NCBI GenBank assembly: GCA_017569285.1
Contig: CP069419.1
Location: forward strand, 868,001-932,000
Source: Clostridiales bacterium
GTDB taxonomy: Bacteria; Bacillota; Clostridia; Christensenellales; Aristaeellaceae
DNA: 64,000 bases
Direction: 5' to 3'
Shown: in pieces, positions 11,627 to 43,601 of the stretch
Numbering within the stretch: the stretch's first letter is position 1
How the letters are laid out: every line of letters starts with the position of its first letter
Translations under genes and position numbers: made by a program
Notes under the pieces: model-generated
Told to the model about the DNA's origin: nothing
The model's input: only the letters and a program-made list of their open reading frames with translations
Databases searched by the model: none

Positions 11627-11644
11627 GCAGTTGTCAGGAAACGG

Positions 11645-11980
11645 GCGAGCGTGACCATAAGCCGGGTTCTGTATTGGACGATCATCTATCCAGGCCGTAC
11701 GTTACCGCACGGCTCAAGCGATTGCGGAGGACGCGGCGGGCCGCCGGCTTGCCTCCATTGCATCTTGCACCGGGTGGGGTTTACAGCAGGAAACAGTTAC
11801 CTGATTCCTGGGTGAGCTCTTACCTCGCCTTTCCATCCTTACTGCCCGAAGGCAGCGGTTTATTTCTGTTGCACTCTCCTTGGAGTCGCCTCCACCGGCC
11901 GTTAGCCGGCACCCTTGCCCTCTGGTGCCCGGACTTTCCTCATGCCGCATGGGCACGCGATCGTCTGTTCACCTCGCTCC
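11645..11980 (-). ncRNA. rnpB: RNase P RNA
   Basis: The catalytic RNA that trims the 5' leaders of tRNA precursors. Conserved blocks read on the minus strand are GAGGAAAGTCCGGGC (near 11928-11942), GTGCAACAGA, AAACCGC, GGTAAGAG, GTAAACCCCACCCGG and, at the 3' end, ACAGAACCCGGCTTATGG (near 11656-11673). The ends were set by pairing of GAGC/GTGA with TCAC/GCTC; they may be off by several bases. The domain order is that of the common A-type RNA, about 336 nt. A consensus promoter lies just upstream and a terminator about 20 bases downstream. A tRNA cluster lies beyond traX. Confidence 0.95.
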
Positions 11981-12997: not shown

Positions 12998-13074
12998 GCG
13001 CCTGTAGCTCAGCCGGATAGAGCAACGGCCTTCTAAGCCGTGGGCCGGGGGTTCGAATCCCTCCAGGCGCGCCA
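12998..13074 (+). tRNA. tRNA-Arg (TCT)
   Basis: Acceptor GCGCCTG/CAGGCGC, anticodon loop CTTCTAA on stem ACGGC/GCCGT, anticodon TCT (reads AGA/AGG). CCA is encoded. Confidence 0.96.
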
Positions 13075-13079
13075 GATAT

Positions 13080-13157
13080 GGTGGGTATAGCGTAGTTGGT
13101 TAACGCGCCAGATTGTGGCTCTGGAGACCGTGGGTTCGAGTCCCACTACTCACCCCA
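13080..13157 (+). tRNA. tRNA-His (GTG)
   Basis: Acceptor GTGGGTA/TACTCAC, anticodon loop TTGTGGC, anticodon GTG. The extra G at position -1 (13080) faces C73, as expected for tRNA-His. CCA is encoded. Confidence 0.96.
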
Positions 13158-13198
13158 TTTTTCCCTGATAAAGCGTCATGCTGGCAGATTACCTACGT

Positions 13199-13270
13199 TG
13201 GGGTGTAGCCAAGTGGTAAGGCACGGGACTTTGACTCCCGCATTCGTAGGTTCGAGCCCTGCCACCCCAG
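13199..13270 (+). tRNA. tRNA-Gln (TTG)
   Basis: Acceptor TGGGGTG/CACCCCA, anticodon loop CTTTGAC, anticodon TTG. CCA is not encoded. Confidence 0.96.
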
Positions 13271-13276
13271 CTTTTT

Positions 13277-13349
13277 GACCCATTAGCTCAGTTGGCAGAG
13301 CACTTGACTTTTAATCAAGGTGTCTGGAGTTCGAATCTCCAATGGGTCA
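13277..13349 (+). tRNA. tRNA-Lys (TTT)
   Basis: Acceptor GACCCAT/ATGGGTC, anticodon loop CTTTTAA, anticodon TTT. CCA is not encoded. Only 6 bases separate it from tRNA-Gln. Confidence 0.96.
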
Positions 13350-13374
13350 CTTTTCTGCTCGCCGGGTCTGCTGC

Positions 13375-13455
13375 GCGGGCGTGGCGGAATGGCAGACGCG
13401 CCAGACTTAGGATCTGGTGTCGCAAGGCGTAAGAGTTCGAGTCTCTTCGTCCGCA
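13375..13455 (+). tRNA. tRNA-Leu (TAG)
   Basis: Acceptor GCGGGCG/CGTCCGC with one G-T pair, anticodon loop CTTAGGA, anticodon TAG, long class II variable arm. CCA is not encoded. Confidence 0.96.
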
Positions 13456-13485
13456 CAAGGTTTCCTTTATCCCGGTGAGGAGCAT

Positions 13486-13561
13486 GCGGTAGTAGCTCAG
13501 TTGGTAGAGTGCCACCTTGCCAAGGTGGATGTCGCGGGTCCGAGTCCCGTCTACCGCTCCA
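13486..13561 (+). tRNA. tRNA-Gly (GCC)
   Basis: Acceptor GCGGTAG/CTACCGC, anticodon loop TTGCCAA, anticodon GCC. CCA is encoded. Confidence 0.96.
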
Positions 13562-13564
13562 TTT

Positions 13565-13635
<71 letters not shown>

Positions 13636-13654
13636 CTTTTTTGTACCTAAATAT

Positions 13655-30038: not shown

Positions 30039-30163
30039 CCGCGGCACTCAGATCGGGCAGCCCCGCAGCACATCTCTCTAACGCTTACTGCTGCTTCCGT
30101 CAGGACCTGACAGGGTTCACGCCGGGAGATCGCACAGGACCCGGTCTTCATCGCGCACGCGGC
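30039..30163 (-). ncRNA. ffs: Signal recognition particle RNA, small bacterial type
   Basis: Minus strand core GTCAGGTCCTGACGGAAGCAGC is the conserved SRP domain that binds Ffh (shown here in part: GTCAGGTCC, then GGAAGCAGC). Flanking strands pair as a long rod, closed by CCGCG near the 5' end and CGCGG at the 3' end, giving about 125 nt. A T-rich run, TTTTTTGTTTTTT, follows the closing stem at 30025-30038 as terminator. No Alu domain is visible, so it is the short form. Ends are approximate. Confidence 0.92.
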
Positions 30164-31863: not shown

Positions 31864-32892
31864 TTATACCTGCTCGGCGATTTCGAGCACCAGCTTTTCC
31901 GTCTTTTCCCATCCGAGGCATGGATCAGTAATCGACTGTCCGTAAACCCCGCCGCCGACCTTCTGGTTCCCGTCCACCAGGTAGCTTTCGATCATCAGGC
32001 CTTTTACCAGCTTTCGCAGCGACTCGTTGTACCGCCGGCTGTGCAGCACTTCCTTGGAGATCCGGATCTGCTCGATGTACTGCTTGCCGGAGTTCGCATG
32101 GTTCACATCCACCACCACCGCCGGATTCTGCAGCTCCCGTTCTTGGTAGAAATCCTTGATTCGGATCAGGTCTTCGTAGTGGTAGTTCGGCTGGGGTTGG
32201 CCATGCTTGTTGGTCGATCCGCGCAGGATGGCATGGGCGTAGGGATTGCCCTCGGAGCGCGCCTCCCATCCGCGGTAGATGAACGTATGTCCGTGCTGGG
32301 CCGCCTGGATGGCATTCAGCATCACCTGGAAATCGCCGCTGGTCGGGTTTTTCATGCCCACCGGCACCTCGATTCCGCTGGCCGTCAGCCGGTGCTGCTG
32401 GTCCTCCACGGACCGTGCGCCGACCGCCACATATCCCAGCATATCATCCAGGTACTTGTGGTTTTCCGGATACAGCATTTCATCGGCCGCCGCCATCCCG
32501 GTCTCTTGCAGCACCCGCATATGCAGCTTCCGGATCGCGATGATTCCCTTGAACATATCCGGTTTTTCGTCCGGATCCGGCTGGTGCAGCATGCCCTTGT
32601 AGCCTTCCCCCGTGGTACGCGGCTTGTTGGTGTAGATCCGCGGAACAATGAACAGCTTGTCCTTCACCTTTTCCGCCAGCTCACCCAGCCGCAGCACATA
32701 TTCCATCACGCTGTCCTCATGATCCGCGCTGCACGGTCCGATCACCAGGATAAACCGGTCGTCCCGGCCGGCAAAAATGCTTTTCAGCTCGGCAATCCGC
32801 TTCTCCACTGTCCGGCTCATTTCCCCGGTCAGCGGGTACATTTCCTTAACCTCCATGGGGATGGCCAGTTTCCGTTCAAATATCATGTTCAT
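31864..32892 (-). CDS. aroF: 3-deoxy-7-phosphoheptulonate (DAHP) synthase, class I
   Basis: First step of the shikimate pathway: condensation of phosphoenolpyruvate and erythrose-4-phosphate. 342 residues, the usual size of the AroF/G/H type. Motifs: VIGPCSADH (PEP/metal Cys), IVPRIYTNKPRTTGEGYKG, VGARSVEDQQHR, GMKNPTSGD, ILRGSTN and VDVNHANSGK (metal His). The N terminus is shortened compared with E. coli enzymes, where that arm binds the feedback amino acid, so its feedback control is uncertain. AAGGAGA lies 9 bases upstream. It is the last gene of the aromatic operon, 14 bases behind tyrA. The symbol aroF is by family, not by feedback type. Confidence 0.93.
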   Translation of the reverse strand: MNMIFERKLAIPMEVKEMYPLTGEMSRTVEKRIAELKSIFAGRDDRFILVIGPCSADHEDSVMEYVLRLGELAEKVKDKLFIVPRIYTNKPRTTGEGYKGMLHQPDPDEKPDMFKGIIAIRKLHMRVLQETGMAAADEMLYPENHKYLDDMLGYVAVGARSVEDQQHRLTASGIEVPVGMKNPTSGDFQVMLNAIQAAQHGHTFIYRGWEARSEGNPYAHAILRGSTNKHGQPQPNYHYEDLIRIKDFYQERELQNPAVVVDVNHANSGKQYIEQIRISKEVLHSRRYNESLRKLVKGLMIESYLVDGNQKVGGGVYGQSITDPCLGWEKTEKLVLEIAEQV

Positions 32893-32906: not shown

Positions 32907-33764
32907 TTACTTTTTATCAAACAGTGCCCGCCGCTGCGTCGACAGCCGCATCTTCTCCCGCATGCCTTCCCGGTCTCCCGCCGCCAGCATGTCCCGGAAC
33001 CGGCTGACCTCTGCCAGGAACACGTCCATCTGCTTCAGCAGCGGTTCCCGATTCATCAGGAAAAGCTCGCTCCACATCGCGTCGTTGATCCGCGCGATCC
33101 GGGTCAGGTCCCGGAAGGAGTCGCCGGTGTAATCCACCAGGTGTGTGTTGTCCGAGCAGGTCATCAGGCTCACCGCGATCACATGCGTCAACTGCGATAC
33201 GAAGCCGATCATCTCGTCATGCTGTTCCGGTGTCAGCTCCGCAATGTGGCGGAAGCCCAGGATCCGTCCGAGGCTCCGGCACCATTCAATTGCTTCCGGC
33301 GTATTCTTCTCCGTGGGGACCACAATATAGTTCGCGTCCCGGAAAATCCGCTCGTCGCTGTTCTGCACGCCGTACACCTCGCGGCCGGCCATCGGGTGGG
33401 CGGCGATAAACTCTACGTCATCCCGCAGCGCCGCCTGGATATCATACACCACGCAGCTCTTCACGCCGGTCACGTCCGTCATCATCAGGCCAGGCTTGAA
33501 CAGGTGCTGCCAGTCGCGGACCCATTCCAGGAATACGCCGGGGTACAGTGCGAAGATCGCTGCGTCTGCCTCCCGCACGGTCGTTTCGTCCACATGGTCA
33601 TATCCGCGGTCAATCACGTCATGCTCCAGCGCCCAGCGAATGGCTTCCGGATCCCGGTCAATCGCGCTGACGTGGAATCCCAGCCGCTTCAGTCCCCGGG
33701 CATAGCTTCCGCCCATCAGTCCGAGACCGACAATCAGGATATTTTTCCTGCTGATCCATTCCAT
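32907..33764 (-). CDS. tyrA: Prephenate dehydrogenase
   Basis: NAD(P)-dependent oxidative decarboxylation of prephenate to 4-hydroxyphenylpyruvate, the tyrosine branch. 285 residues from the ATG at 33764, which follows GGAGGTGG and lies 31 bases inside the end of aroA. Rossmann motif ILIVGLGLMGGSYARGL; Asp after strand 2 (AIDRD) suggests NAD preference. The HPMAGREVYGVQNSD block and the SQLTHVIAVSLM catalytic His motif are typical. No C-terminal ACT domain, so tyrosine inhibition through ACT is not expected. Chorismate mutase activity is supplied by PheA. Confidence 0.93.
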   Translation of the reverse strand: MEWISRKNILIVGLGLMGGSYARGLKRLGFHVSAIDRDPEAIRWALEHDVIDRGYDHVDETTVREADAAIFALYPGVFLEWVRDWQHLFKPGLMMTDVTGVKSCVVYDIQAALRDDVEFIAAHPMAGREVYGVQNSDERIFRDANYIVVPTEKNTPEAIEWCRSLGRILGFRHIAELTPEQHDEMIGFVSQLTHVIAVSLMTCSDNTHLVDYTGDSFRDLTRIARINDAMWSELFLMNREPLLKQMDVFLAEVSRFRDMLAAGDREGMREKMRLSTQRRALFDKK

Positions 33765-34966
33765 GGTTCCACCTCCGCCTGTATTCCCAGCGCGGCCAGC
33801 CGGTCCCAGTAGTCCGGCAGGCTTTTGCGGACCGCCTCCGCGCCGTCCAGCGTCCCGCCGGTCCTCGCACACACTGCCGCCAGCGCCATCACGATCCGGT
33901 GGTCGTTGTGGCCGTCCAGCGGCTCCGCCGGTGCCTCCGGCATCTTGCCGGGAATCAGGATTTCATTTTCCTTATTTTCCAGGATGATACCGAACTTGGC
34001 CATTTCTTCCCGCATGGCTTCACCCCGGTCGCTTTCCTTCATCCGCAGTCTCCGGGTTCCGGTCAGCTTAGCGCCGTGGTTCAGCGCCGCGGCGGCAATC
34101 AGGGCCGGCGCCAGGTCCGGGCAGTCCGTCAGATCCAGCTCCGGCGTTCCTTTCCGGATCTCCGCCAGGTAGCGGCTGTATACCCGGTCTCCCTGCAGGC
34201 TGTCCGTCCGCAGCCCGGTCAGCTCCACTTTCCCGCCTGCGTCATTCAGGATATCCAGGTACGCGGCGTTGGAATAGTCGCCTTCCACCATCGTCTCCCG
34301 TGCCCGGTATGCGCCGGCGGGAATGTTCAGGGCATATTCCCCGTCCCATTCCGCTTCAATCCCGGAATCCCGCAGTGCCTGCACCGTCAGGTCCAGGTAC
34401 GGGCGGCTTTCCAGCGGTGGCAGGATCCCGATCCGGCTGTCCGCACCGGTCAGCGGCAGGGCCAGCATCAGGCCGGAAATAAACTGGCTGCTGATGTCCC
34501 CGCGCACGGTATACGCCCCGGACGTCAGCGTCCCGCGCACCCGCAGTCCGCCGTCTTCCCGGACAAATACCATTCCGCGCTCCGCGCAGAGCGCTTCATA
34601 CACCGTCAGTGGCCGGCTCATCAGTCGCTCGCTGCCGGTAAACCGGATATCTTTTCCGCACAGCAGCGCAGCGGGAATCATAAACCGCAGGGTGCTTCCG
34701 CTCTCCCGGCAGGCCAGGAGCGCTTCCCCCGCCTTCCGCGGATCGCATCCGCGGATATATGCTGTTTCTTCTTCGATCCGGACCTCCGCTCCAAGCGCGC
34801 GCAGGCAGTCTGCCGTAGCCAGGATATCCTCACTTGCGTCCACATGGCGGATCACGCTTTCACCTTCCGCGAATCCCGCGCAGATCAGCAGGCGGTGGGC
34901 CATGGACTTGGAGGGCGGCGCTTCCATCCGGCCCCGGGGATTTCCGGGCTGAATTACCGCCCTCAT
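33734..34966 (-). CDS. aroA: 3-phosphoshikimate 1-carboxyvinyltransferase (EPSP synthase)
   Basis: Sixth shikimate-pathway step, joining PEP to shikimate-3-phosphate. 410 residues. Motifs are PPSKSMAHRLLICAG (substrate Lys/Ser/Arg), ESGSTLRFMIP, VRGDISSQFISGLMLALP, ESRPYLDLT, RLRMKESDR and GHNDHRIVMALA. The start overlaps the aroQ stop (ATGA) and its end overlaps tyrA. Active-site positions LFLGNAGTAMRPL-type in class I enzymes are here in the divergent ESGSTLRF form, so by motif it groups with the Bacillota enzymes; glyphosate sensitivity class cannot be judged safely by eye. Confidence 0.95.
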   Translation of the reverse strand: MRAVIQPGNPRGRMEAPPSKSMAHRLLICAGFAEGESVIRHVDASEDILATADCLRALGAEVRIEEETAYIRGCDPRKAGEALLACRESGSTLRFMIPAALLCGKDIRFTGSERLMSRPLTVYEALCAERGMVFVREDGGLRVRGTLTSGAYTVRGDISSQFISGLMLALPLTGADSRIGILPPLESRPYLDLTVQALRDSGIEAEWDGEYALNIPAGAYRARETMVEGDYSNAAYLDILNDAGGKVELTGLRTDSLQGDRVYSRYLAEIRKGTPELDLTDCPDLAPALIAAAALNHGAKLTGTRRLRMKESDRGEAMREEMAKFGIILENKENEILIPGKMPEAPAEPLDGHNDHRIVMALAAVCARTGGTLDGAEAVRKSLPDYWDRLAALGIQAEVEPWNGSAGKIS

Positions 34967-35400
34967 TTCCCGTCCTCCGTACCGGCAAGGTAGTCCATCG
35001 CTTCCAGGTATCCGTCCGTTCCATGGCCGGAGATCGTTTTCTCGCAGGCCGCGCGGATATAGCTCACCTTCCGGAATTCCTCCCGGGCATTCACGTCGGA
35101 GATATGTACCTCCACCGCCCGGATGCCGACCGCCTTCATTGCGTCCAGGATGGCAATGCTCGTATGCGTATACGCGCCGGGATTGATCACAATGCCGTCC
35201 TCCCGGCCGTAGGCCGACTGGATGGCATCCACCAGCGCGCCTTCATGGTTGGACTGGAAAAGGGTGACCTCAATCCCCCGCTTCTCAGCATGCTCCCGGA
35301 TCTTCCGGCACAGGCTCTCATAGGTCTCCCGGCCGTAGATATCCGGTTCCCGGATTCCCAGCATATTCAGGTTCGGTCCGTTGATCACCAGGATCCTCAT
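34963..35400 (-). CDS. aroQ: 3-dehydroquinate dehydratase, type II
   Basis: Third pathway step, anti-elimination of water from 3-dehydroquinate. 145 residues, typical for the dodecameric type II enzyme. NGPNLNMLGIREPDIYG carries the catalytic Tyr loop; NPGAYTHTSIAILDA and VEVHISDVNAREEFR bind substrate, with ISGHGTDGY near the C terminus. The ATG at 35400 overlaps the aroE-aroK stop (ATGA), and the stop overlaps aroA in the same way. Confidence 0.95.
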   Translation of the reverse strand: MRILVINGPNLNMLGIREPDIYGRETYESLCRKIREHAEKRGIEVTLFQSNHEGALVDAIQSAYGREDGIVINPGAYTHTSIAILDAMKAVGIRAVEVHISDVNAREEFRKVSYIRAACEKTISGHGTDGYLEAMDYLAGTEDGK

Positions 35401-36635
35401 GCGTTCCACCTGCTTTCCGTTTCATCGGCCGTATCCTCTGCGCTGCCCGTCACCGCGATCCGCTCATCCGCGGTCGCACGGTAGATCGGCTCCCGCGCGG
35501 CATATAGTGCCGCCATCTTTTCCCGGGAATCCGCCAGCGGCCGGTCATCCGTCGGAACCAGGTCCTCCGGTTTCCGGTCCAGCCATACCAGCCGGCCGTT
35601 CCGCCGCAGCGCTTCCACGTTTTCCTCCCGCAGGACGGCTCCGCCGCCCGTGGAGATAATCACCCCGGCGCAGGCCGCCGCCTCACGGATCACTTCGCTC
35701 TCCAGGTCCCGGAAATGCTTTTCGCCGTACCGGCGGAAGATCTCCGTGATTTCCATCCCGGCCTTCTCCACAATCATCCGGTCCGTGTCAATCACTTCCC
35801 GGCCGGTCCGCGCTCCCAGGATGGACGATACCGCGCTTTTTCCGCTGCCCGGCATCCCGGTCAGTACGATGTTTTCCTTGTCCCGGGCCATCCGGCGGTA
35901 AATCTTCTCCGTCAGTCCTTCTTCATACCGGATCCCGCGGAATACCTCCGCTGCCCGGACCGCCTGGGCCACCAGCATGTACAGTCCGCCCTCCGCCGGG
36001 ATGCCCCGCCGCATGGCGGCCAGCACCAGCTTCGTTCGCAGGGGATTGTAAATCACGTCCACCACGCCCCGCAGTTCCGGGAATCCGGTGATATCCACGG
36101 GCATATCCTCCGCTGCCGGGAACATGCCGCACGGCGTAGTATTGATCAGGATTTCCGCATCCCGGTGGTCCCGCAGCGCTTCCTCGTAGGTCACCGCGTC
36201 TTCCCGGGCGCTCCGGCTCACCCGGATCACCGGCTCCGCGCCCATGACCTTTGCGGTATACACGGCTGTTTTGCTCGTTCCGCCGGTACCGAGCACCAGC
36301 GTCTTCCGGCCCCGGATATCCGGACAGACCCGCGCAATCAGCGCCTGCAGCCCGGCCGCGTCCGTGTTGGTTCCGTACAGGCACCCATCCCGGTTGACGA
36401 TGGTATTCACCGCGCCGATCTCCCGTGCCGTATCGCTGATTTCATCCAGGTATGGAATCACGTCCTGTTTGTAGGGAATCGTCACATTGATCGCCCGGAA
36501 CTCCTTCCGGATCATAAATGTTCCCAGGTCCGCCGGCGCGATTTCCCGCAGCTCGTAGTCCTCGCCGCTGATCAGCCGGTGAATCGGCACGGAATAGCTG
36601 TGGCCGAGGTGTTCCCCGATCAGTCCGTACTGCAT
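35397..36635 (-). CDS. aroE-aroK: Bifunctional shikimate dehydrogenase / shikimate kinase (AroE-AroK fusion)
   Basis: 412 residues in one frame, covering steps four and five. Residues 1 to about 258 are AroE: GLIGEHLGHSYSVPIHR (substrate Ser), INVTIPYKQDVIPYLD (catalytic Lys), GAVNTIV, TNTDAAGLQALI (Asp), LVLGTGGTSKTAVY (NADP loop), VDVIYNPLRTKLV and a C-terminal LYMLVAQAV. Residues about 262-412 are AroK: P-loop LTGMPGSGKSAVSS, IDTDRMI, FRDLESEVIREAA, ISTGGGAVLRE and the LID-region DDRPLADSREKM. All key residues of both halves seem intact, so both should be active. The ATG at 36635 shares one base with the aroC stop (TGATG) and follows GGAGGA. Elsewhere these are usually separate genes; AroE-AroK fusions occur in some Clostridia. 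Confidence 0.93.
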   Translation of the reverse strand: MQYGLIGEHLGHSYSVPIHRLISGEDYELREIAPADLGTFMIRKEFRAINVTIPYKQDVIPYLDEISDTAREIGAVNTIVNRDGCLYGTNTDAAGLQALIARVCPDIRGRKTLVLGTGGTSKTAVYTAKVMGAEPVIRVSRSAREDAVTYEEALRDHRDAEILINTTPCGMFPAAEDMPVDITGFPELRGVVDVIYNPLRTKLVLAAMRRGIPAEGGLYMLVAQAVRAAEVFRGIRYEEGLTEKIYRRMARDKENIVLTGMPGSGKSAVSSILGARTGREVIDTDRMIVEKAGMEITEIFRRYGEKHFRDLESEVIREAAACAGVIISTGGGAVLREENVEALRRNGRLVWLDRKPEDLVPTDDRPLADSREKMAALYAAREPIYRATADERIAVTGSAEDTADETESRWNA

Positions 36636-37729
36636 CAGTCTGCTCCTCCCGGCCATTCCGGCCCGAAGCGCGTAACCAGCATGTCGTACAGTACGATTGC
36701 CGTCATGCAGTCCGCCACCACGCGGGCCCGGTGCACAATCGCCGGATCATGCCGCCCGCCCGCGGCCAGCGTCGTTTCGCAGTTTTTCGTGATATCCACC
36801 GTCTGCTGCTCCTTCCGGATGGTGGGGGTCGGTTTCACCGCGCAGCGGAACAGCACCGGCATTCCGTTGGTGATGCCGCCGTTGATCCCGCCGTTGCGGT
36901 TGGTGGCGGTCTCCACCTTTCCGTCCCGCATCACAAACGGATCGTTGGCCTCGCTCCCCCGCATATCCGCGAGTGCGAATCCGTCGCCGAATTCAACGCC
37001 CTTCACCGCAGGAATGGAAAACAGCGCATGGGAAAGCACGCCTTCCATCGTGTCGAACCAGGGTTCCCCTACACCTGCGGGCACACCTGTCACCAGCGTT
37101 TCCAGCACGCCGCCGACACTGTCGCCTTCCTCTGCCGCGCGTTCCGCCGCGGCGCGCATCTCCTCGCCCCGGGCCTCATCCAGCACGGCAAACTCCATCC
37201 GGTTCAGCTTTTCTATGTCCTTCTCCGGCCGGTCCGAAAAACCGGCGTCCGCAATGCCCGCGCACCGGGCGATATGGGTTCCGATCCGGATTCCCTTCCG
37301 CTCCAGCGCGTAAGAGAGAACCGCCCCTGCCGCCACCAGCGCCGCGGTAATCCGTCCGCTGAAATGGCCGCCGCCCCGGTAATCCTCAAACCCGCCGTAC
37401 CGGATATGCCCGGTATAGTCTGCGTGTCCCGGCCGTACCGGTCCGAATGTATAGTCCTGACTCCGGGTGTCCCCGTTCGGAATCAGGATGGTCAGCGGCG
37501 TCCCGGTGGTCCGCCCGTTGAAAACCCCGCTCACAATCCGGAAGGGATCCGTTTCCCGCCGCGCGGTGGAAATCTTCCCCGCCGGCCGGCGCAGGCGCAG
37601 CTTTTCCGCGATATACGATTCGTCCACCGGAATTCCTGCAACCAGTCCGTCCAGCACGGCGCCGATCTCCGGTCCGTGGCTCTCGCCGAACAGCGTCACC
37701 GTCACGTTTCCGCCGAAAGTATTTTTCAT
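36635..37729 (-). CDS. aroC: Chorismate synthase
   Basis: Seventh step: trans-elimination of phosphate from EPSP to chorismate, needing reduced FMN. 364 residues. Signature blocks: LFGESHGPEIGAVLDG, RRPAGKISTARRETD, GPVRPGHADYT, DYRGGGHFSGRITAA, GDSVGGVLET, NRNGGINGGITNGMPV and GRHDPAIVHRARVVAD. Start ATG at 37729 follows GGAGGGG. An upstream in-frame codon at 37744 lies before that site. Confidence 0.96.
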   Translation of the reverse strand: MKNTFGGNVTVTLFGESHGPEIGAVLDGLVAGIPVDESYIAEKLRLRRPAGKISTARRETDPFRIVSGVFNGRTTGTPLTILIPNGDTRSQDYTFGPVRPGHADYTGHIRYGGFEDYRGGGHFSGRITAALVAAGAVLSYALERKGIRIGTHIARCAGIADAGFSDRPEKDIEKLNRMEFAVLDEARGEEMRAAAERAAEEGDSVGGVLETLVTGVPAGVGEPWFDTMEGVLSHALFSIPAVKGVEFGDGFALADMRGSEANDPFVMRDGKVETATNRNGGINGGITNGMPVLFRCAVKPTPTIRKEQQTVDITKNCETTLAAGGRHDPAIVHRARVVADCMTAIVLYDMLVTRFGPEWPGGAD

Positions 37730-37753
37730 GGTGTTCCCCTCCATGCTTCTGTC

Positions 37754-38764
37754 TTATCCGAACTGGGCTGTATAGCGTTCCCGCAGTTCCTCCGGCGTCA
37801 TCGGTATGATCCGGCAGCTGCCGGCTTTCTCGCATACAACCGCCATAATCTTTCCGTGATCCGCCTTCTTGTCATGGATTACCGCCGCCATCACGCGGCC
37901 GGGATCCGCGCCGCACACGGTCGGCAGCCCGAGCCGTTCCAGCACGGTCTTCAGCCGCGGCCGCACCGCGTCCGAGCACATCGGCAGCATGCCCAGTGCC
38001 ACGCATTCCCCGTGGTACAGGCCGTTTTCCGCGTGCAGGCTTTCAATTCCGTGCCCCAGTGTATGTCCGAAATTCAGTGCCCGGCGCAGGCCCTGCTCCT
38101 TCACGTCTTCTTCCACCACGCGTTTCTTGATCCGCAGGGCGTTCTCGATCAGCCGGTCCGGACGGTCGCCGATCCGGTATCCTTCCGCCAGGGCAAATCC
38201 CTCCGCGTCAAAGCACACCGCCATCTTCACTGCTTCCGCCATGCCGTTCGCGACCTGCCGGTCCGGCAGTGTTTCCAGCACCTCCGGATCGATCAGCACC
38301 CGCTTCGGCTGGTAAAACGCGCCCACAATATTCTTGATGCCGTCCAGGTCAATCGCGGTCTTTCCGCCGATGGAGGAGTCCACCTGGCTCAGGACCGTCG
38401 TGGGAATATTGTAGAAGTCGATTCCCCGCATATAGCACGCCGCGGCAAACCCGGCCATATCGCCGATGACGCCGCCTCCCACGGCTGCCACGCAGTCCTT
38501 CCGGGTCATGCCGAAATCCAGCATGGCCCGCAGCAGCCGTTCAAAGCCCGCAAAGTTCTTGTTCTCCTCACCCTGCGGCAGGGTTTCGATCCGTGCTTCC
38601 CCGCACTGGTCTGCCACGGTTTTCGCGTATGCTTCCGGCACGCCGTCATCCGTCACCACCAGCACCTTCCGGTCCAGCCGGAGCAGTTCCCCCGCGCGGC
38701 GGATGCATCCGCGTTCCAGCACGATATCATAGCTGTCTGTTCCCAGGTTCACGGGAATGATCAT
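37754..38764 (-). CDS. aroB: 3-dehydroquinate synthase
   Basis: Second step: NAD- and metal-dependent cyclisation of DAHP. 336 residues. GGGVIGDMAGFAAACYMRG binds NAD, IPTTVLSQVDSSIGGKTAIDL is the family block, NGMAEAVKMAV the active-site Glu motif, and NFGHTLGHGIESL with HGECVALGM hold the metal His residues. The ATG overlaps the pheA stop (ATGA). It ends 24 bases before aroC. Confidence 0.96.
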   Translation of the reverse strand: MIIPVNLGTDSYDIVLERGCIRRAGELLRLDRKVLVVTDDGVPEAYAKTVADQCGEARIETLPQGEENKNFAGFERLLRAMLDFGMTRKDCVAAVGGGVIGDMAGFAAACYMRGIDFYNIPTTVLSQVDSSIGGKTAIDLDGIKNIVGAFYQPKRVLIDPEVLETLPDRQVANGMAEAVKMAVCFDAEGFALAEGYRIGDRPDRLIENALRIKKRVVEEDVKEQGLRRALNFGHTLGHGIESLHAENGLYHGECVALGMLPMCSDAVRPRLKTVLERLGLPTVCGADPGRVMAAVIHDKKADHGKIMAVVCEKAGSCRIIPMTPEELRERYTAQFG

Positions 38765-39873
38765 GCTTCATCCTCCTGCAGGCTGATTTCCGGCGAGAAC
38801 CTTCCGGCCACTTTCACTACATTGCAGTGTTCCGCCAGTTCCCGCATCATCTGCTGCCCTTCTTCGCTCCGGTCGTCGCCTTCCATTTCCGCAAAGAAGT
38901 AGTACTGCCAGGGCAGCTCCTTCATCGGCCGGGAACGAAGCGCCTTCATATTGAAGCCGTGCCGGCCGATCACGGTAATCGCATTGGCCAGCGCGCCGGC
39001 CACGTGGTTCACCGTAAACAGCAGCAGGAAGCTTGTCCCGCCGGAAAGCGGCGTCCGGTTCTCCGCCCGGGAGAACACCGCAAACCGAGTTGCGTTCAGC
39101 CCGCTTTCATTAATATTTTTTTCCAGTACCTCCAGCCCGTACAGCCGGGCGGTTTCCATGCTCGCGATCGCCGCTGTGGCGGGATCCCCCTGTTCCATCA
39201 CCGCCTGGGCTGCCCGCGCTGTGTTGGATGCCTGCACCGTTTCCAGCCCGTGCCGCCGGATATATCCGCCGCACTGGCTCAGCGCCTGGGGATGGCTCAC
39301 CACCCGCCGGATATTTTCTGCCTTCGCGCCGGGTACGCCCAGCAGGTGGTGGTTCACCGGCAGGGTATAAACGCCTGTCACATGCAGGCTTCCGGTGAAC
39401 ATCAGGTCCGTCACCTGGCCGACCTCGCCGGCATAGCTGTTTTCCAGCGGGAGCACACATACGTCGCATCCGCCGTTTTCCACCTCGCGGTAGGCTTCCG
39501 CAAAATCCTGGCAGGATACCGCTTCGCCTTCCGGGAAGATGCGTTTTGCCGCGATATACGCAAACGCGCCTTCCACACCGCTGTAAGCCGCCCGGATTCC
39601 CTTCATCAGCCGCCGCTGGTACCCGCGGGAGCAGCTCATCACATTCCGGATAAACAGGTCGTAGTCCGCCTGCAGTTCATCGTTCCGGATATACGCCATG
39701 TTCCGTGCGATGACTTCCTGCTCCCGTCCCGCGTCCAGGATCGGCAGTCCGTGTTCCTTCTTCCACAGCGCGATCTGCTTCACGGCCTCCATGCGCTGCT
39801 CAAACAGGCGGGCCATCTCCCGGTCCGTTTCGTTGATAATTGCCCGCTGGGCAGTCAGTACTTCCGTGTCCAT
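38761..39873 (-). CDS. pheA: Bifunctional chorismate mutase / prephenate dehydratase (P-protein)
   Basis: 370 residues with three domains. Residues 1-85: AroQ-type chorismate mutase (INETDREMARLFEQRMEAVKQIALWKKEHG, then DAGREQEVI). Residues about 93-270: prephenate dehydratase, with YSGVEGAFAYIAA, LPLENSYAGEVGQV, HPQALSQCGGYI and the catalytic NATRFAVFSR. Residues about 283-365: ACT domain with GALANAITV and RSRPMKELPWQYYFFAE, where ESRP of the E. coli enzyme reads RSRP; phenylalanine feedback is expected. It is the first structural gene of the aromatic operon and sits directly behind the leader peptide and attenuator. The mutase also feeds TyrA. Confidence 0.95.
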   Translation of the reverse strand: MDTEVLTAQRAIINETDREMARLFEQRMEAVKQIALWKKEHGLPILDAGREQEVIARNMAYIRNDELQADYDLFIRNVMSCSRGYQRRLMKGIRAAYSGVEGAFAYIAAKRIFPEGEAVSCQDFAEAYREVENGGCDVCVLPLENSYAGEVGQVTDLMFTGSLHVTGVYTLPVNHHLLGVPGAKAENIRRVVSHPQALSQCGGYIRRHGLETVQASNTARAAQAVMEQGDPATAAIASMETARLYGLEVLEKNINESGLNATRFAVFSRAENRTPLSGGTSFLLLFTVNHVAGALANAITVIGRHGFNMKALRSRPMKELPWQYYFFAEMEGDDRSEEGQQMMRELAEHCNVVKVAGRFSPEISLQEDEA

Positions 39874-39897
39874 CGTTCATCCTCCGGTTCAGGTATT

Positions 39898-39934
39898 AAA
39901 AAACCACCGCTCTTCCTACGACAAGAAGCGGTGG
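39898..39934 (-). terminator. Attenuator terminator in front of pheA
   Basis: Minus strand CCACCGCT, an internal partly paired TCTT/AGGA segment and loop, AGCGGTGG, then TTTTTT. It lies between the Phe/Tyr leader gene and pheA, 25 bases before the pheA start, and its 5' arm is shared with the antiterminator. Confidence 0.88.
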
Positions 39935-39980
39935 ATGCTGTCTTTTATTCCGGCTTTCCGGTCTGTCAGCTATCCATCGC
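39928..39980 (-). promoter_or_regulatory. Antiterminator of the pheA attenuator
   Basis: 5' arm GCGATGGATAGCTGAC (39965-39980) pairs with GACAGCATCCACCGC (39928-39942): 13 pairs with two mismatches and one bulged A. The 3' arm contains the 5' strand of the terminator, so the two folds exclude each other. The 5' arm is the last codons and stop of the leader gene, so a ribosome at the leader stop blocks it while a ribosome stalled at the Phe/Tyr codons leaves it free. Confidence 0.8.
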
Positions 39981-40016
39981 GATGCTATAAAAGTAAAAGT
40001 AGGAGTATGCGAACAT
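39966..40016 (-). CDS. Phe/Tyr leader peptide of the aromatic operon
   Basis: 16-codon open frame reading MFAYSYFYFYSIAMDS: three Phe and four Tyr codons in the first ten. It starts at ATG 40016, 12 bases after AGGAAAGG, and ends inside the antiterminator arm. This is the classical arrangement of amino-acid attenuators such as E. coli pheL. Low charged tRNA-Phe or tRNA-Tyr should stall the ribosome and favour read-through into pheA. An overlapping frame from the ATG at 40023 (MKHVRILLLLLL) has a closer ribosome site, but its six Leu codons make no metabolic sense here; it might still affect initiation. Confidence 0.82.
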   Translation of the reverse strand: MFAYSYFYFYSIAMDS

Positions 40017-40049
40017 GCTTCATGGTTTCCTTTCCTAAGGGTCTGCATC

Positions 40050-40078
40050 AGCATACAGCCGGATGCCGCCCCTGTCAA
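40050..40078 (-). promoter_or_regulatory. Promoter of the aromatic operon
   Basis: Minus strand TTGACA (40073-40078), 17-base spacer, TATGCT (40050-40055). Transcription would begin near 40043, giving a leader of about 170 bases before pheA. Confidence 0.82.
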
Positions 40079-40124
40079 TCACTCTCCGGCCGGGCATCCG
40101 TTTTTTCTCTGTTTTTCCCGGCCC

Positions 40125-40154
40125 TTGTCTTTTTTCTTTTGCTTGTGCTATCAT
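40125..40154 (+). promoter_or_regulatory. Promoter of the M16 peptidase gene
   Basis: TTGTCT (40125-40130), 18-base spacer, TATCAT (40149-40154); divergent from the aromatic operon promoter. Confidence 0.6.
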
Positions 40155-40208: not shown

Positions 40209-43200
40209 ATGAAAAAAATCCTGTCCCTGGTTCTCGCCCTGGCCATGCTGCTGGGGATTGTCCCTGCGTTCGGCGAAGCTCCCGCCGCCTCCGCGCTTCC
40301 CGCTGTCGGTGATACAGTGGAAGGCTTCGAGGTAAAGGAAATCCGCGAATTCGGCCTGATCGGCGCGCAGCTGGTATACTTCGAGCATGCGCAGACCGGC
40401 GCGAAACTGCTCTATATCGCCAACAGCGATACAAACCGTGCCTTCCAGCTCACATTTGTCACCCGGATGGAAAATGATATGGGTCTCCCCCATGTCTTTG
40501 AGCACGGAACCCTCAGCGGATCGGAAAAATATCCCTCCACGGACCTGTGGTTCAATGTCGCTTACCAGACATACAACACCTACATCAATGCCTATACAAC
40601 AGATGCCATGACCAGTTTTCCTGTTGCCTCCCTTTCCGAGGAGCAGTTGTTGAAACTGGCGGATCTTTACACGGATTCGTGCCTGAATCCGATGATCATG
40701 TCTGATGAAAGCATCTACCGTACCGAAGCCTGGCGCTACGAGATGACGGATCCCGATGCCGATCTGACACTGAATGGCACCGTATATACCGAAATGACAG
40801 GCGCCATGGATCTTGGCGAAGCGGCGCTGTATGCCGCCAATAAGGCAACCTTCCCGGGTGCCTCCATCTCTTACAACTATGGCGGCGATCCGGACCATAT
40901 CCCGGAAATGGTCTGGCAGGACCTCAAGGATTACCACAACAAGTATTATCATCCTTCCAACTGTCTGGCCCTGCTGTACGGTTCCTTCAGCGACTACACC
41001 GCGTTCCTGAAACTCCTGAACGAGGCGTTCGCCTCCTTTGACCGCAAGGAAATCAGCCTGGAGGAGAACTATACCCGGATTACTGAACCGGTAACCACCC
41101 ATGCTGCCTGGCGGATGGCGGAAGGATCCGATCCGGCCAACCAGACAGCAATCTACTACTATATTGTATGCCCCGGCATGCGGGATGACCGTGCACAGGA
41201 GCTGCTGATTGACCATGCCTGTGAGCTGCTGGGCGATTCCGCTTCCCCGTTGATGCAGGCCCTGAAGAAAGCCTTCCCGACCGGCTCCTTCAGTATCGGC
41301 CGCGAGGTCGCCGCGCCTGATGACGCGATCGTCATCGTCGCCAATGGAGTTAACGACGGCGATGAGAAACAGTTTAAGGCGATTGTTGATGAAAACCTCG
41401 CAGCTGCCGCTCAGAACGGCTTCGGTGCGGAACTGGTGGACAATATCGTCACCCTTCTGAAGTTCAACGCCAAGCTCGCCAATGAAAACAGCAGTCCCGT
41501 GCAAGGCCTCATGTACCATCTGGCTTATGACTACGCTGTCAGCGGCAATGTGTTCGCCTATGTGGAAAGCTACGAAGCCCTGAACAGTATCGAAGACGAA
41601 AACAGCCAGGGGCTCCTGGCCGGTGCTGTACAGAAATGGCTCGTCAATCCTGAACTGTACACGGTCACTGTTACCGTTCCTGCTCCCGGCGAACAGGAAG
41701 TCCATGACGCAGCCCTGGCCGCTTCTCTTGCGGAGATCAAGGCTGCCATGACTCCCGAAGAAATTCAGGCAATCATCGATGCCACCAATGCCGAGGATCC
41801 CGATGATGACACCACCGCCATGGTGGAGAGCCTGACTGCCGTCAGCCTGGCCACCCTGCCGGAAGAGGTCAAAAAATATGAAATCAAGGACAGCACCGAT
41901 GAGAGCGGTGTCCGCCGCATTGAAGCAGTATCCGGCGTGGACGGGCTCTCCTACATCATGCTGAATCTGGACGCGATGACACTGCCGCAGGAAGACATCC
42001 ATTACATGCGGCTCTTCACCCGCCTGCTGGGCAAGATGGATACCGATGCCCATACCTGGGAGGAACTGGATTCCCTGATCTCCCGCTACCTCTATAATGG
42101 CACCTTCGGCGTCTTTGTCAGCGGCTATAAAGATACCTTCCATCCCTATATGGTGGCTGAATGGTATTCGCTCGATGAGGACCTGGAAGCAGGCTATAAC
42201 CTGGCTGAGGAAATCCTGTACCGCACACAGTTCACAGATACCGAAACGCTGCTGAAGCGGATCCAGGACCAGAAGAACTATGTGCGCAACCAGATCAACG
42301 GTTCTCCCTACCAGGTACTCCTGTACCGCCAGTGGGGCATCAGTTCCGAACACTATCGCTATTACAGCTACCTGAACTTCCTGGAGTACTATGACTTCCT
42401 CACAAAGATCGAAGCTCTCATGGAAGAGAATCCGGACGAGGTCGTTGCCCGCCTGCAGCGGGTCCAGCAGTTCTTCGCCAGCCGTTCCGGTGCCGTTGCG
42501 GCCATCGCCGCCAGCGAGGACTCCCTGGCGCTGAACCGTCCGCTGACCGACGCTTTCTTCGCGAAGCTGGACGGAACCGCCCGCGATGCTGTGGAATACA
42601 GCCTGCCTGTTCCTGCAAATAAAGAAGCCATCATCGCCGATACCAACGTGCAGTTCAACGGTATCTGCATCAACTGGAAGGATATTGATCCTGAAATCGA
42701 CGGTGAAGCTTATGATGTTGCCGCCCAGCTTGTGACCGACAGGCTGCTGATTTCAGACCTGCGTGACAAAATGGGTGTCTACACGCCCTGGTGCAGTTCC
42801 GGCAATGAAACTTTCTACATCCTGACCTACCGTGATCCCAACCTGGCGGAAACCTTCACCTACTATGACGGGCTGCCGGACCTGATCAACGCCCTGGATG
42901 TGGATCAGTCCACAATTGACAAGTATATCCTCAGCACCTATTCCGGCCTTGCACAGCCCGAAGGTGAGATGACCGGGGCAATCTCCGCGCTGAACAATTA
43001 CATCAACGGCGTGCCGGAAGATCTCAAGCTGCAGAACATGAGGGCCCTCAAGAGCGTCACACCGGAAACCGTAAAGGCATTTGCACTTTCCCTGGCGGAT
43101 GTTCTGAATTCCGGTATCCGCGGAACGGCCGGCAGCGCTGCGGCGATTAACGCCAACGCCGAAATGTTCGATGTCGTCTACAACCCCTTCAACGCGGTCG

Positions 43201-43601
43201 ACCTGAGCGCCGTCGAATTCGAGGATGTACCGGAAGGGCATGAACAGTATGAGAGCATCCACTTCGCGGTGGATAACAAGTTCATGGCGCCGCTGTCCGA
43301 TACCGTCTTCGGTGTGGATGAACCCGCGACCGTCGGCGACTTCCTCGCCTCCGTCTACGCGCTCATGGGTGGTCCTGCCGGTGATCCGGAAGGTGCCCGC
43401 GCATGGCTGGCCAGCTACGAACTTGTCGATGCAGATGCAGATCTGTCTGCCCCACTGACGGAAGATCTCTTCTGCCTCATCATGCAGGCAATCGGCGTCG
43501 GCTACACCACGGACACACCGGACACAGTCGTCCCGCGCGGCGACCTGGCGGATGTGCTCATGCAGGTCAATGAAATGCTGAGCCAGCAGGGTGCGGCGTA
43601 A
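40209..43601 (+). CDS. Secreted M16C metallopeptidase (presequence-protease-like) with SLH-like C terminus
   Basis: 1130 residues. Signal peptide MKKILSLVLALAMLLGIVPAFG, cleaved near residue 22. The inverted zinc motif is HVFEH (His95, Glu98, His99) with the distal Glu195 in TVYTEMTGAM. Four M16 domains fill residues 40 to about 1000, with a helical linker near 500-545, as in PreP/falcilysin enzymes that degrade peptides inside a closed chamber. Residues 1014-1130 differ: HFAVDNKFMAPLSDTVFGVDEPATVGDFL and a second, weaker unit (ARAWLASYELV, then LTEDLFCLIMQAIGVG) follow the S-layer homology pattern, though the usual Arg of the TRGxF/TRAEF motif is missing. That suggests wall attachment. AGAAAGGTGG stands before the ATG. 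Probably an extracellular or wall-bound peptide scavenger; the bound polymer is not known. Confidence 0.87.
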   Translation: MKKILSLVLALAMLLGIVPAFGEAPAASALPAVGDTVEGFEVKEIREFGLIGAQLVYFEHAQTGAKLLYIANSDTNRAFQLTFVTRMENDMGLPHVFEHGTLSGSEKYPSTDLWFNVAYQTYNTYINAYTTDAMTSFPVASLSEEQLLKLADLYTDSCLNPMIMSDESIYRTEAWRYEMTDPDADLTLNGTVYTEMTGAMDLGEAALYAANKATFPGASISYNYGGDPDHIPEMVWQDLKDYHNKYYHPSNCLALLYGSFSDYTAFLKLLNEAFASFDRKEISLEENYTRITEPVTTHAAWRMAEGSDPANQTAIYYYIVCPGMRDDRAQELLIDHACELLGDSASPLMQALKKAFPTGSFSIGREVAAPDDAIVIVANGVNDGDEKQFKAIVDENLAAAAQNGFGAELVDNIVTLLKFNAKLANENSSPVQGLMYHLAYDYAVSGNVFAYVESYEALNSIEDENSQGLLAGAVQKWLVNPELYTVTVTVPAPGEQEVHDAALAASLAEIKAAMTPEEIQAIIDATNAEDPDDDTTAMVESLTAVSLATLPEEVKKYEIKDSTDESGVRRIEAVSGVDGLSYIMLNLDAMTLPQEDIHYMRLFTRLLGKMDTDAHTWEELDSLISRYLYNGTFGVFVSGYKDTFHPYMVAEWYSLDEDLEAGYNLAEEILYRTQFTDTETLLKRIQDQKNYVRNQINGSPYQVLLYRQWGISSEHYRYYSYLNFLEYYDFLTKIEALMEENPDEVVARLQRVQQFFASRSGAVAAIAASEDSLALNRPLTDAFFAKLDGTARDAVEYSLPVPANKEAIIADTNVQFNGICINWKDIDPEIDGEAYDVAAQLVTDRLLISDLRDKMGVYTPWCSSGNETFYILTYRDPNLAETFTYYDGLPDLINALDVDQSTIDKYILSTYSGLAQPEGEMTGAISALNNYINGVPEDLKLQNMRALKSVTPETVKAFALSLADVLNSGIRGTAGSAAAINANAEMFDVVYNPFNAVDLSAVEFEDVPEGHEQYESIHFAVDNKFMAPLSDTVFGVDEPATVGDFLASVYALMGGPAGDPEGARAWLASYELVDADADLSAPLTEDLFCLIMQAIGVGYTTDTPDTVVPRGDLADVLMQVNEMLSQQGAA

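Follow-up and report, generated by a model that had tools for sequence, protein, structure and literature searches.

The window (the whole stretch of 64,000 nucleotides analysed here) carries on its minus strand a set of aromatic amino acid genes, listed in Table 1. An eight-gene aro operon had been proposed at this place, and domain and profile searches bear it out: the order is pheA-aroB-aroC-aroEK-aroQ-aroA-tyrA-aroF, with aroE and aroK fused. The genes are tightly packed, with short gaps or overlaps, from the start of pheA at 39873 onwards, and are probably co-transcribed. They cover the shikimate pathway and the Phe and Tyr branches, and none of the eight is a Trp gene. A divergent long ORF on the plus strand (40209-43601), which we take to resemble an M16-type metallopeptidase, begins about 130 nt from the promoter in front of pheA. 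Elsewhere the window contains an RNase P RNA (11642-11976, minus strand), a small SRP RNA (30048-30146, minus strand) and seven clustered tRNA genes (12998-13636, plus strand).

The initial annotation described an attenuator between promoter and pheA on the minus strand, made up of a Phe/Tyr leader, an antiterminator and a terminator with six T. All of these parts are present in the places proposed. The promoter is of the sigma-70 type, with a spacer of 17 nt between the -35 and -10 boxes. The two segments that had been suggested to pair were located as GCGATGGATAGCTGAC (39980-39965) and GACAGCATCCACCGC (39942-39928). The conserved core of the antiterminator 5' arm is GCGATGGAT (39972-39980), and the final seven bases of the 3' arm double as the 5' arm of the terminator.

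Table 1. Features of the attenuator and of the genes that follow it.
Feature	Position in window	Strand	Basis
-35 box, TTGACA	40073-40078	-	sequence inspection
-10 box, TATGCT	40050-40055	-	sequence inspection
Shine-Dalgarno-like sequence, AGGAAAGG	40029-40036	-	sequence inspection
Overlapping ORF, MKHVRILLLLLL, in another frame and closer to the Shine-Dalgarno-like sequence	39985-40023	-	sequence inspection
Leader ORF, MFAYSYFYFYSIAMDS, ATG to TGA, 16 codons, 3 Phe and 4 Tyr	39966-40016	-	homologous leaders in relatives
Antiterminator 5' arm, GCGATGGATAGCTG, overlaps the end of the leader ORF	39967-39980	-	folding and covariation
Small hairpin in the antiterminator loop, CCGG-AAAG-CCGG	39950-39961	-	folding
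Antiterminator 3' arm, CAGCATCCACCGC, overlaps the terminator 5' arm	39928-39940	-	folding and covariation
Intrinsic terminator, CCACCGCTTCTT..AAGAGCGGTGG and T6	39898-39934	-	folding
pheA, chorismate mutase and prephenate dehydratase	38761-39873	-	domain/profile matches
aroB	37754-38764	-	profile match (TIGR01357, 304.2 bits, cut-off 305)
aroC	36635-37744	-	profile match
aroE-aroK fusion	35397-36632	-	domain/profile matches
aroQ, type II dehydroquinase	34963-35409	-	profile match
aroA	33734-34966	-	profile match (TIGR01356, 261.6 bits, cut-off 287)
tyrA, prephenate dehydrogenase	32907-33761	-	domain match
aroF-type DAHP synthase	31864-32892	-	domain/profile matches

When five pieces of the leader were folded alone and compared with dinucleotide shuffles, the antiterminator piece (39928-40000, z -3.22) and the terminator piece (39896-39945, z -3.41) deviated most, the other three having z of -1.94, -1.59 and -2.94. 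The stability of the whole 150-nt leader was discarded as evidence, its z of -0.85 being no better than shuffles, and so was the Phe/Tyr run alone, since the genome has 9 occurrences of TTYTAYTTYTAY versus 17 of a reversed control. It is the arrangement of the parts and their conservation that exceed chance, not the Phe/Tyr run by itself. The locus has a short ORF with a run of end-product codons, a terminator before the first structural gene, and a covarying antiterminator that shares the terminator 5' arm.

The overlapping ORF MKHVRILLLLLL was absent from the earlier reading of the locus. Its ATG (40021-40023) lies 5 nt past the AAGG of AGGAAAGG and is better spaced than the Phe/Tyr ATG, which lies 12 nt past it, and the genome G015 carries a similar ORF, MKHVREFLLLLL. 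The ORF translated in the window genome might on this ground be the Leu-rich one, the device then sensing Leu or merely coupling termination to translation. We regard this as improbable, however. In G020, G031, G035 and G210, a comparable run of Leu was absent from all ORFs with starts up to 75 nt before the arm, and the starts in the other frame sit further upstream than the Phe/Tyr start. Alternating TTT/TAC codons yield a Leu-rich reading as a by-product, and the products of the operon are Phe and Tyr.

Four genomes of the same genus have a homologous leader before pheA or aroB (MFANSYYYFYSPAMDG, MRKVFGYYYFRNAMDG, MRPYVSGFFFSRSAMD and MKGYSYYFTGAMDERRDASV). Both arm cores are identical in the window genome and these relatives (5 of 5), and the hairpin between the arms has the same stem in G015 and different sequences in G020, G031 and G035. 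The exact pattern GCGATGGAT..ATCCACCGC was rejected as a search tool, having matches in only 4 of 45 genomes of the genus, and covariance models were used instead. A first model (R1), built from the window leader and the four relatives, matched 30 of 308 genomes of the family at E ≤ 1, 28 of these at E ≤ 4.6e-4; the matches in G171 (E 0.558) and G229 (E 0.462) have no Phe/Tyr leader and terminator before an aromatic gene and were rejected as chance. Of 80 loci taken around related pheA genes, many of them from ruminant gut assemblies, R1 also matched 22, four of which coincide with the records G015, G020, G206 and G210; many relatives of the window pheA are without the element. A second model (R2), built from 50 elements, matched 26 of 396 genomes of the order and 5 of 391 genomes of the class, the window genome included, the genomes surveyed being mostly incomplete assemblies that are related to each other. 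Eight of the order-level matches (G048, G346, G395, G410, G496, G498, G599 and G611) were judged to be chance, as they show no Phe/Tyr leader plus terminator preceding an aromatic gene. In the window genome, R2 finds at E ≤ 10 two elements only, the copy at the aro operon and one before a phenylacetate-CoA ligase homologue. Five families of the class (f1, f16, f41, f61 and f107) were found to carry the element. The window attenuator is thus a single member of a family of elements that stand before other operons too, and the finding is broader than the first reading assumed.

The alignment analysed below (A8) holds 64 elements from 65 sources, L198 falling below the R2 threshold. Fifty of its rows had trained R2, and 14 had not (11 of f16, and L200, L201 and L202). 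Extra weak matches were removed by a lower E-value (nine in A5 and one in A7), near-copies or duplicates were left out of the search (L146; L072 and L199; L098, L099, L107 and L149), and the leader ORFs of L059 and L186 were chosen by hand. One weak match, L091 (G206:C99, R1 E 0.608), was retained because of its leader, the perfect re-pairing of its stem and the gene that follows; its R2 score gives no independent support, because L091 was in the training set. A TTGACN-N16-18-TANNNT pair is found upstream of 63 of the 64 elements, versus 12 of 3200 mononucleotide-shuffled upstream sequences, and the terminator has z < -1.5 in all 64.

Compensatory changes in the antiterminator, whose absence the initial annotation had named as refuting its reading, are seen. 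In the 64 elements, aligned by a model of the tested stem that 50 of the rows had themselves trained, there are 31 double-changed cells versus 5.6 in shuffles, a number reached in 0 of 500 shuffles. The outer stem is paired in 97.1% of cells; five of its eight pairs have changes on both sides and three show no double change, with a covariation score of 0.217 versus at most 0.070 in slid controls. The signal is weaker in the 26 aro-operon elements alone (4 double-changed cells versus 1.2, at 2 of 8 pairs). Examples of paired arms are GCGATGGAT/ATCCACCGC, GCGATTGAT/TTCAACCGC, GCGATGTGT/ACGCACCGC, GCGATGTGA/TCACACCGC and GCGGCAGAC/ATCTGCCGC. In a genus that belongs to another family, 11 leaders have the arm GCGATGTG; seven of them end in AM, AMC or AMCN and four in SDV. 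The same arm is read in two frames, and is therefore conserved as RNA. At position 4 of the 5' arm, an A-C mismatch with the partner is kept in 62 of 64 elements, with G-C in L091 and G-U in L202; this mismatch perhaps tunes the balance with the terminator.

Homologous leaders retain their Phe/Tyr codons, whose loss would likewise have spoken against the initial reading, while the neighbouring residues vary. The two amino acids are not used evenly. The 22 leaders of pheA operons have on average 3.4 Phe and 3.7 Tyr codons. The averages are 3.3 Phe and 0.8 Tyr for the 25 leaders that precede phenylacetate-CoA ligase, where Tyr ranges from 0 to 2, and 3.5 Phe and 0.7 Tyr for the 11 of f16. Where the operon shows tyrA, the leader has at least three Tyr codons in 17 of 17 cases (range 3 to 5); where no tyrA is visible, it has at most two in 7 of 7 (range 0 to 2), an association with a Fisher probability of 2.9e-6, not corrected for relatedness. 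This count left out 40 of the 64 elements, namely the 25 before phenylacetate-CoA ligase, 7 of the 11 of f16, 2 before transporters, and 6 aro elements whose contig or stretch ends before the tyrA position (L058, L082, L105, L134, L140 and L145). In L148, L164, L165, L172 and L177, tyrA was missed by tblastn but found by Pfam, and the ORFs behind aroF were therefore also scanned with Pfam in seven operons (L049, L095, L155, L207, L208, L209 and L211), where no prephenate dehydrogenase was found behind aroF; in L095, L155 and L209 less than 1 kb of sequence lies behind aroF. The clearest case is L155, with the order pheA-aroB-aroC-aroEK-aroA-aroF, where tyrA is missing from its usual slot between aroA and aroF and the leader has FFFF and one Tyr. 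The poorest fit is L080, pheA-aroF with two Tyr codons. Judged from sequence, the Phe/Tyr codon mix of each element appears to match the product of the operon behind it.

These observations bear on two other readings. Some leader peptides, such as TnaC, arrest the ribosome as nascent peptides and sense a metabolite. Ala-Met-Asp is found at the C-terminus in 44 of 64 leaders, and could be an arrest sequence of this sort, sensing a free metabolite rather than acting by codon-dependent stalling. This is very improbable, since 20 of the 64 leaders lack it (having AID, AMC, AME, AMG, SDV or others), the same RNA arm is in the SDV frame in 4 of the 11 leaders described above, the arm co-varies with its partner, and Tyr content tracks tyrA. 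Given the two-frame reading of the arm, the best account of Ala-Met-Asp is that it follows incidentally from the RNA pairing. It is hardly credible that the element is a plain leader terminator, or a riboswitch for an unknown ligand, with the short ORF incidental: the terminator does deviate most from shuffles (median z -5.70 versus -3.63 for the antiterminator), but Phe/Tyr codons persist despite changes in other residues, the codon mix tracks operon content, and there is no matching Rfam family.

We consider it highly likely that the element at the aro operon is a ribosome-mediated transcription attenuator, sensing charged tRNA-Phe and tRNA-Tyr. This is based on its anatomy, the covariation, the codon tuning, and mutual exclusion on the nascent RNA, as shown by sequence and computation; in the cell, the leader would be translated, and ribosome stalling and termination would follow from the supply of Phe and Tyr. 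RNA polymerase would initiate at the promoter (40050-40078), with a ribosome translating MFAYSYFYFYSIAMDS behind it. When Phe or Tyr is scarce, the ribosome would stall within the Phe/Tyr run and leave GCGAUGGAUAGCUG free, which would pair with CAGCAUCCACCGC once this is made; the terminator 5' arm would then be engaged, giving read-through to pheA-...-aroF. When both are plentiful, the ribosome would run on to the UGA, situated in the overlap with the antiterminator 5' arm, and cover the arm, so that the terminator would form. The switch would be kinetic, in that the antiterminator would pair before the terminator 3' arm exists.

The nascent RNA was modelled as a transcript that ends at the 3' arm, with a ribosome whose mask starts 17 nt upstream of the first base of the A-site codon and ends 12 nt downstream of it. 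When the ribosome stands at the middle Phe/Tyr codon, all 64 elements have a predicted antiterminator probability above 0.5; the number is 63 for the first Phe/Tyr codon, 46 for the last and 13 for the stop. For the window genome, the probabilities are 0.99 (middle), 0.99 (first), 0.59 (last), 0.98 (no ribosome) and 0.00 (stop). The 13 exceptions at the stop all belong to the 20 long-tailed leaders (of 64), in which the stop follows the arm at a distance of more than 9 nt; there the model would place a ribosome at the stop within the antiterminator loop. Full-transcript equilibrium with ribosome masks was discarded as support, since it gives mostly terminator in all states, the antiterminator exceeding the terminator in 12 of 64 elements with no ribosome, 5 at the middle codon, 2 at the last and 1 at the stop. 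Because the terminator mostly wins at equilibrium, the choice must be made during transcription. In trp-type attenuators, a separate 1:2 protector hairpin causes termination when there is no translation, a feature not required of the general kind. No such hairpin is predicted in the present elements, the antiterminator exceeding 0.5 without a ribosome in 61 of 64, and read-through is predicted in the absence of translation.

A homologue of phenylacetate-CoA ligase follows 25 of the 64 elements; the gene was matched in 24, and in L089 the contig ends just after its first codons. The second copy in the window genome, outside the window, is of this type (G000:C1:2603913-2604007, minus strand; L086 5914-6008). 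Its leader is MLYTAAFAFRSLAMDE, followed by a ligase matching TIGR02155 (E 3.9e-157, under the equivalog cut-off) and then by an ACT-pair protein. Since attenuation turns genes on at Phe shortage, we infer a Phe-making role for the element-linked ligase. Rumen bacteria were reportedly found by Allison in 1965 to make phenylalanine from phenylacetate. Making phenylpyruvate from phenylacetyl-CoA requires indolepyruvate ferredoxin oxidoreductase as a partner; its alpha subunits are found above cut-off in 41 of 45 genomes of the genus, with two in the window genome. Passages in the literature state that enzymes of this type also run in the opposite direction in gut bacteria (PMC13290082), and report Phe synthesis from phenylacetate in the rumen (PMC7356843). 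Two further elements (L091 874-989; L202/L212) precede ABC transporter operons, whose binding proteins match TrpX under the cut-off; they have Phe/Tyr leaders and a re-paired antiterminator stem.

Taken together, it is on balance likely that we are dealing with a portable, undescribed attenuator class of gut Clostridia that defines a Phe/Tyr regulon, in which one core with re-tuned codons would control aro/phe/tyr biosynthesis, phenylacetate salvage and TrpX-like import. The salvage arm would, as part of the same proposal, consist of the phenylacetate-CoA ligase and ACT protein together with the ferredoxin oxidoreductase working in the carboxylating direction. If this is true, the Phe leader would mark these phenylacetate-CoA ligases of the gut as anabolic enzymes that serve to make Phe. 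A Phe-form element before the ligase homologue makes the old rumen report of phenylalanine from phenylacetate testable at gene level.

A second leader architecture was observed at 17 of the 80 pheA loci (L108, L110, L111, L113, L114, L116-L121, L124, L125, L128, L131, L151 and L161). Here different Phe/Tyr leaders, with peptides of the ARFYAGFYC type, lie upstream with a different terminator. The core pattern is held by 16 of the 17, and AACAGGTGCT pairs with AGCGGTTCTGTT, or near copies of these (five fragments). L166 and L167 have Phe/Tyr-rich leaders upstream of pheA that are outside both classes, one of them with CCFANFFCYYYYYWF.

The window genome has 10 T-box (RF00230) matches at E ≤ 0.01, two of them above the gathering score, and none at the aro-operon leader. 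They precede a symporter gene, leuA-, MocR- and TrpB-like genes, two genes with MbcS-like domains, asnB, thrS, proS and one unclassified stretch. A genome with 10 T-box matches seems to run its aromatic genes by a ribosome-read switch. In L225 and L227 (C1:2347697 and 1048641), the T-box is followed by MbcS-like acyl-CoA synthetase domains behind a helix-turn-helix-like N-terminal stretch, possibly a salvage of volatile acids to amino acids under tRNA control.

Rfam gives no match to the attenuator in a search of the whole window at the gathering threshold, and a single, unrelated match at 39800-40150 with E ≤ 10. The covariance model RF01859, which we take to be Phe_leader, has no match at the locus. 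The attenuators of gammaproteobacterial pheA and pheST have in common with the window family a Phe-codon leader peptide, a choice between antiterminator and terminator, and aromatic genes. Unlike them, the window family has Tyr codons mixed in, lacks a predicted competing 1:2 hairpin, and reuses one conserved RNA core before different operons. The open-licence literature, among the matches listed, holds no description of leaders for Phe/Tyr, whether from Clostridia or in front of phenylacetate-CoA ligase, nor of the attenuator RNA family, its regulon or its codon tuning. A survey by Lopatovskaya et al. from 2010 is said to be directly relevant.

A pheL-type device had been called unusual for Bacillota. 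Reports of amino acid genes under leader-peptide control are sparse there, to judge from parts of PMC2965389, PMC5794164 and PMC4833913, but such control is not confined to Gammaproteobacteria, as there are His and Leu cases in Bacillota. Parts of PMC2965389 describe His leader peptides of hisS*/hisZ in Bacilli, where a codon-sensing leader peptide likewise replaces a T-box, but for histidine and other genes; the word phenylalanine has no occurrence in its main text. The hisZ leaders of Clostridium difficile and Bacillus are also cited in a passage of PMC4833913. The ilv-leu operon of Staphylococcus aureus has an experimentally supported, Leu-rich attenuator peptide, according to sections of PMC5794164, and is likewise a Bacillota biosynthetic operon under leader-peptide control, but for Leu/Ile, in Staphylococcus and with other genes. 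The mechanism belongs to a known kind, of which His and Leu examples from Bacillota have been published. Because the present element recurs in front of different operons, with a codon content that follows the end product, it can help in assigning gene functions. It shares with T-box leaders the tRNA-dependent antitermination of amino acid genes, but at the aro operon it is the ribosome that would read the tRNA.
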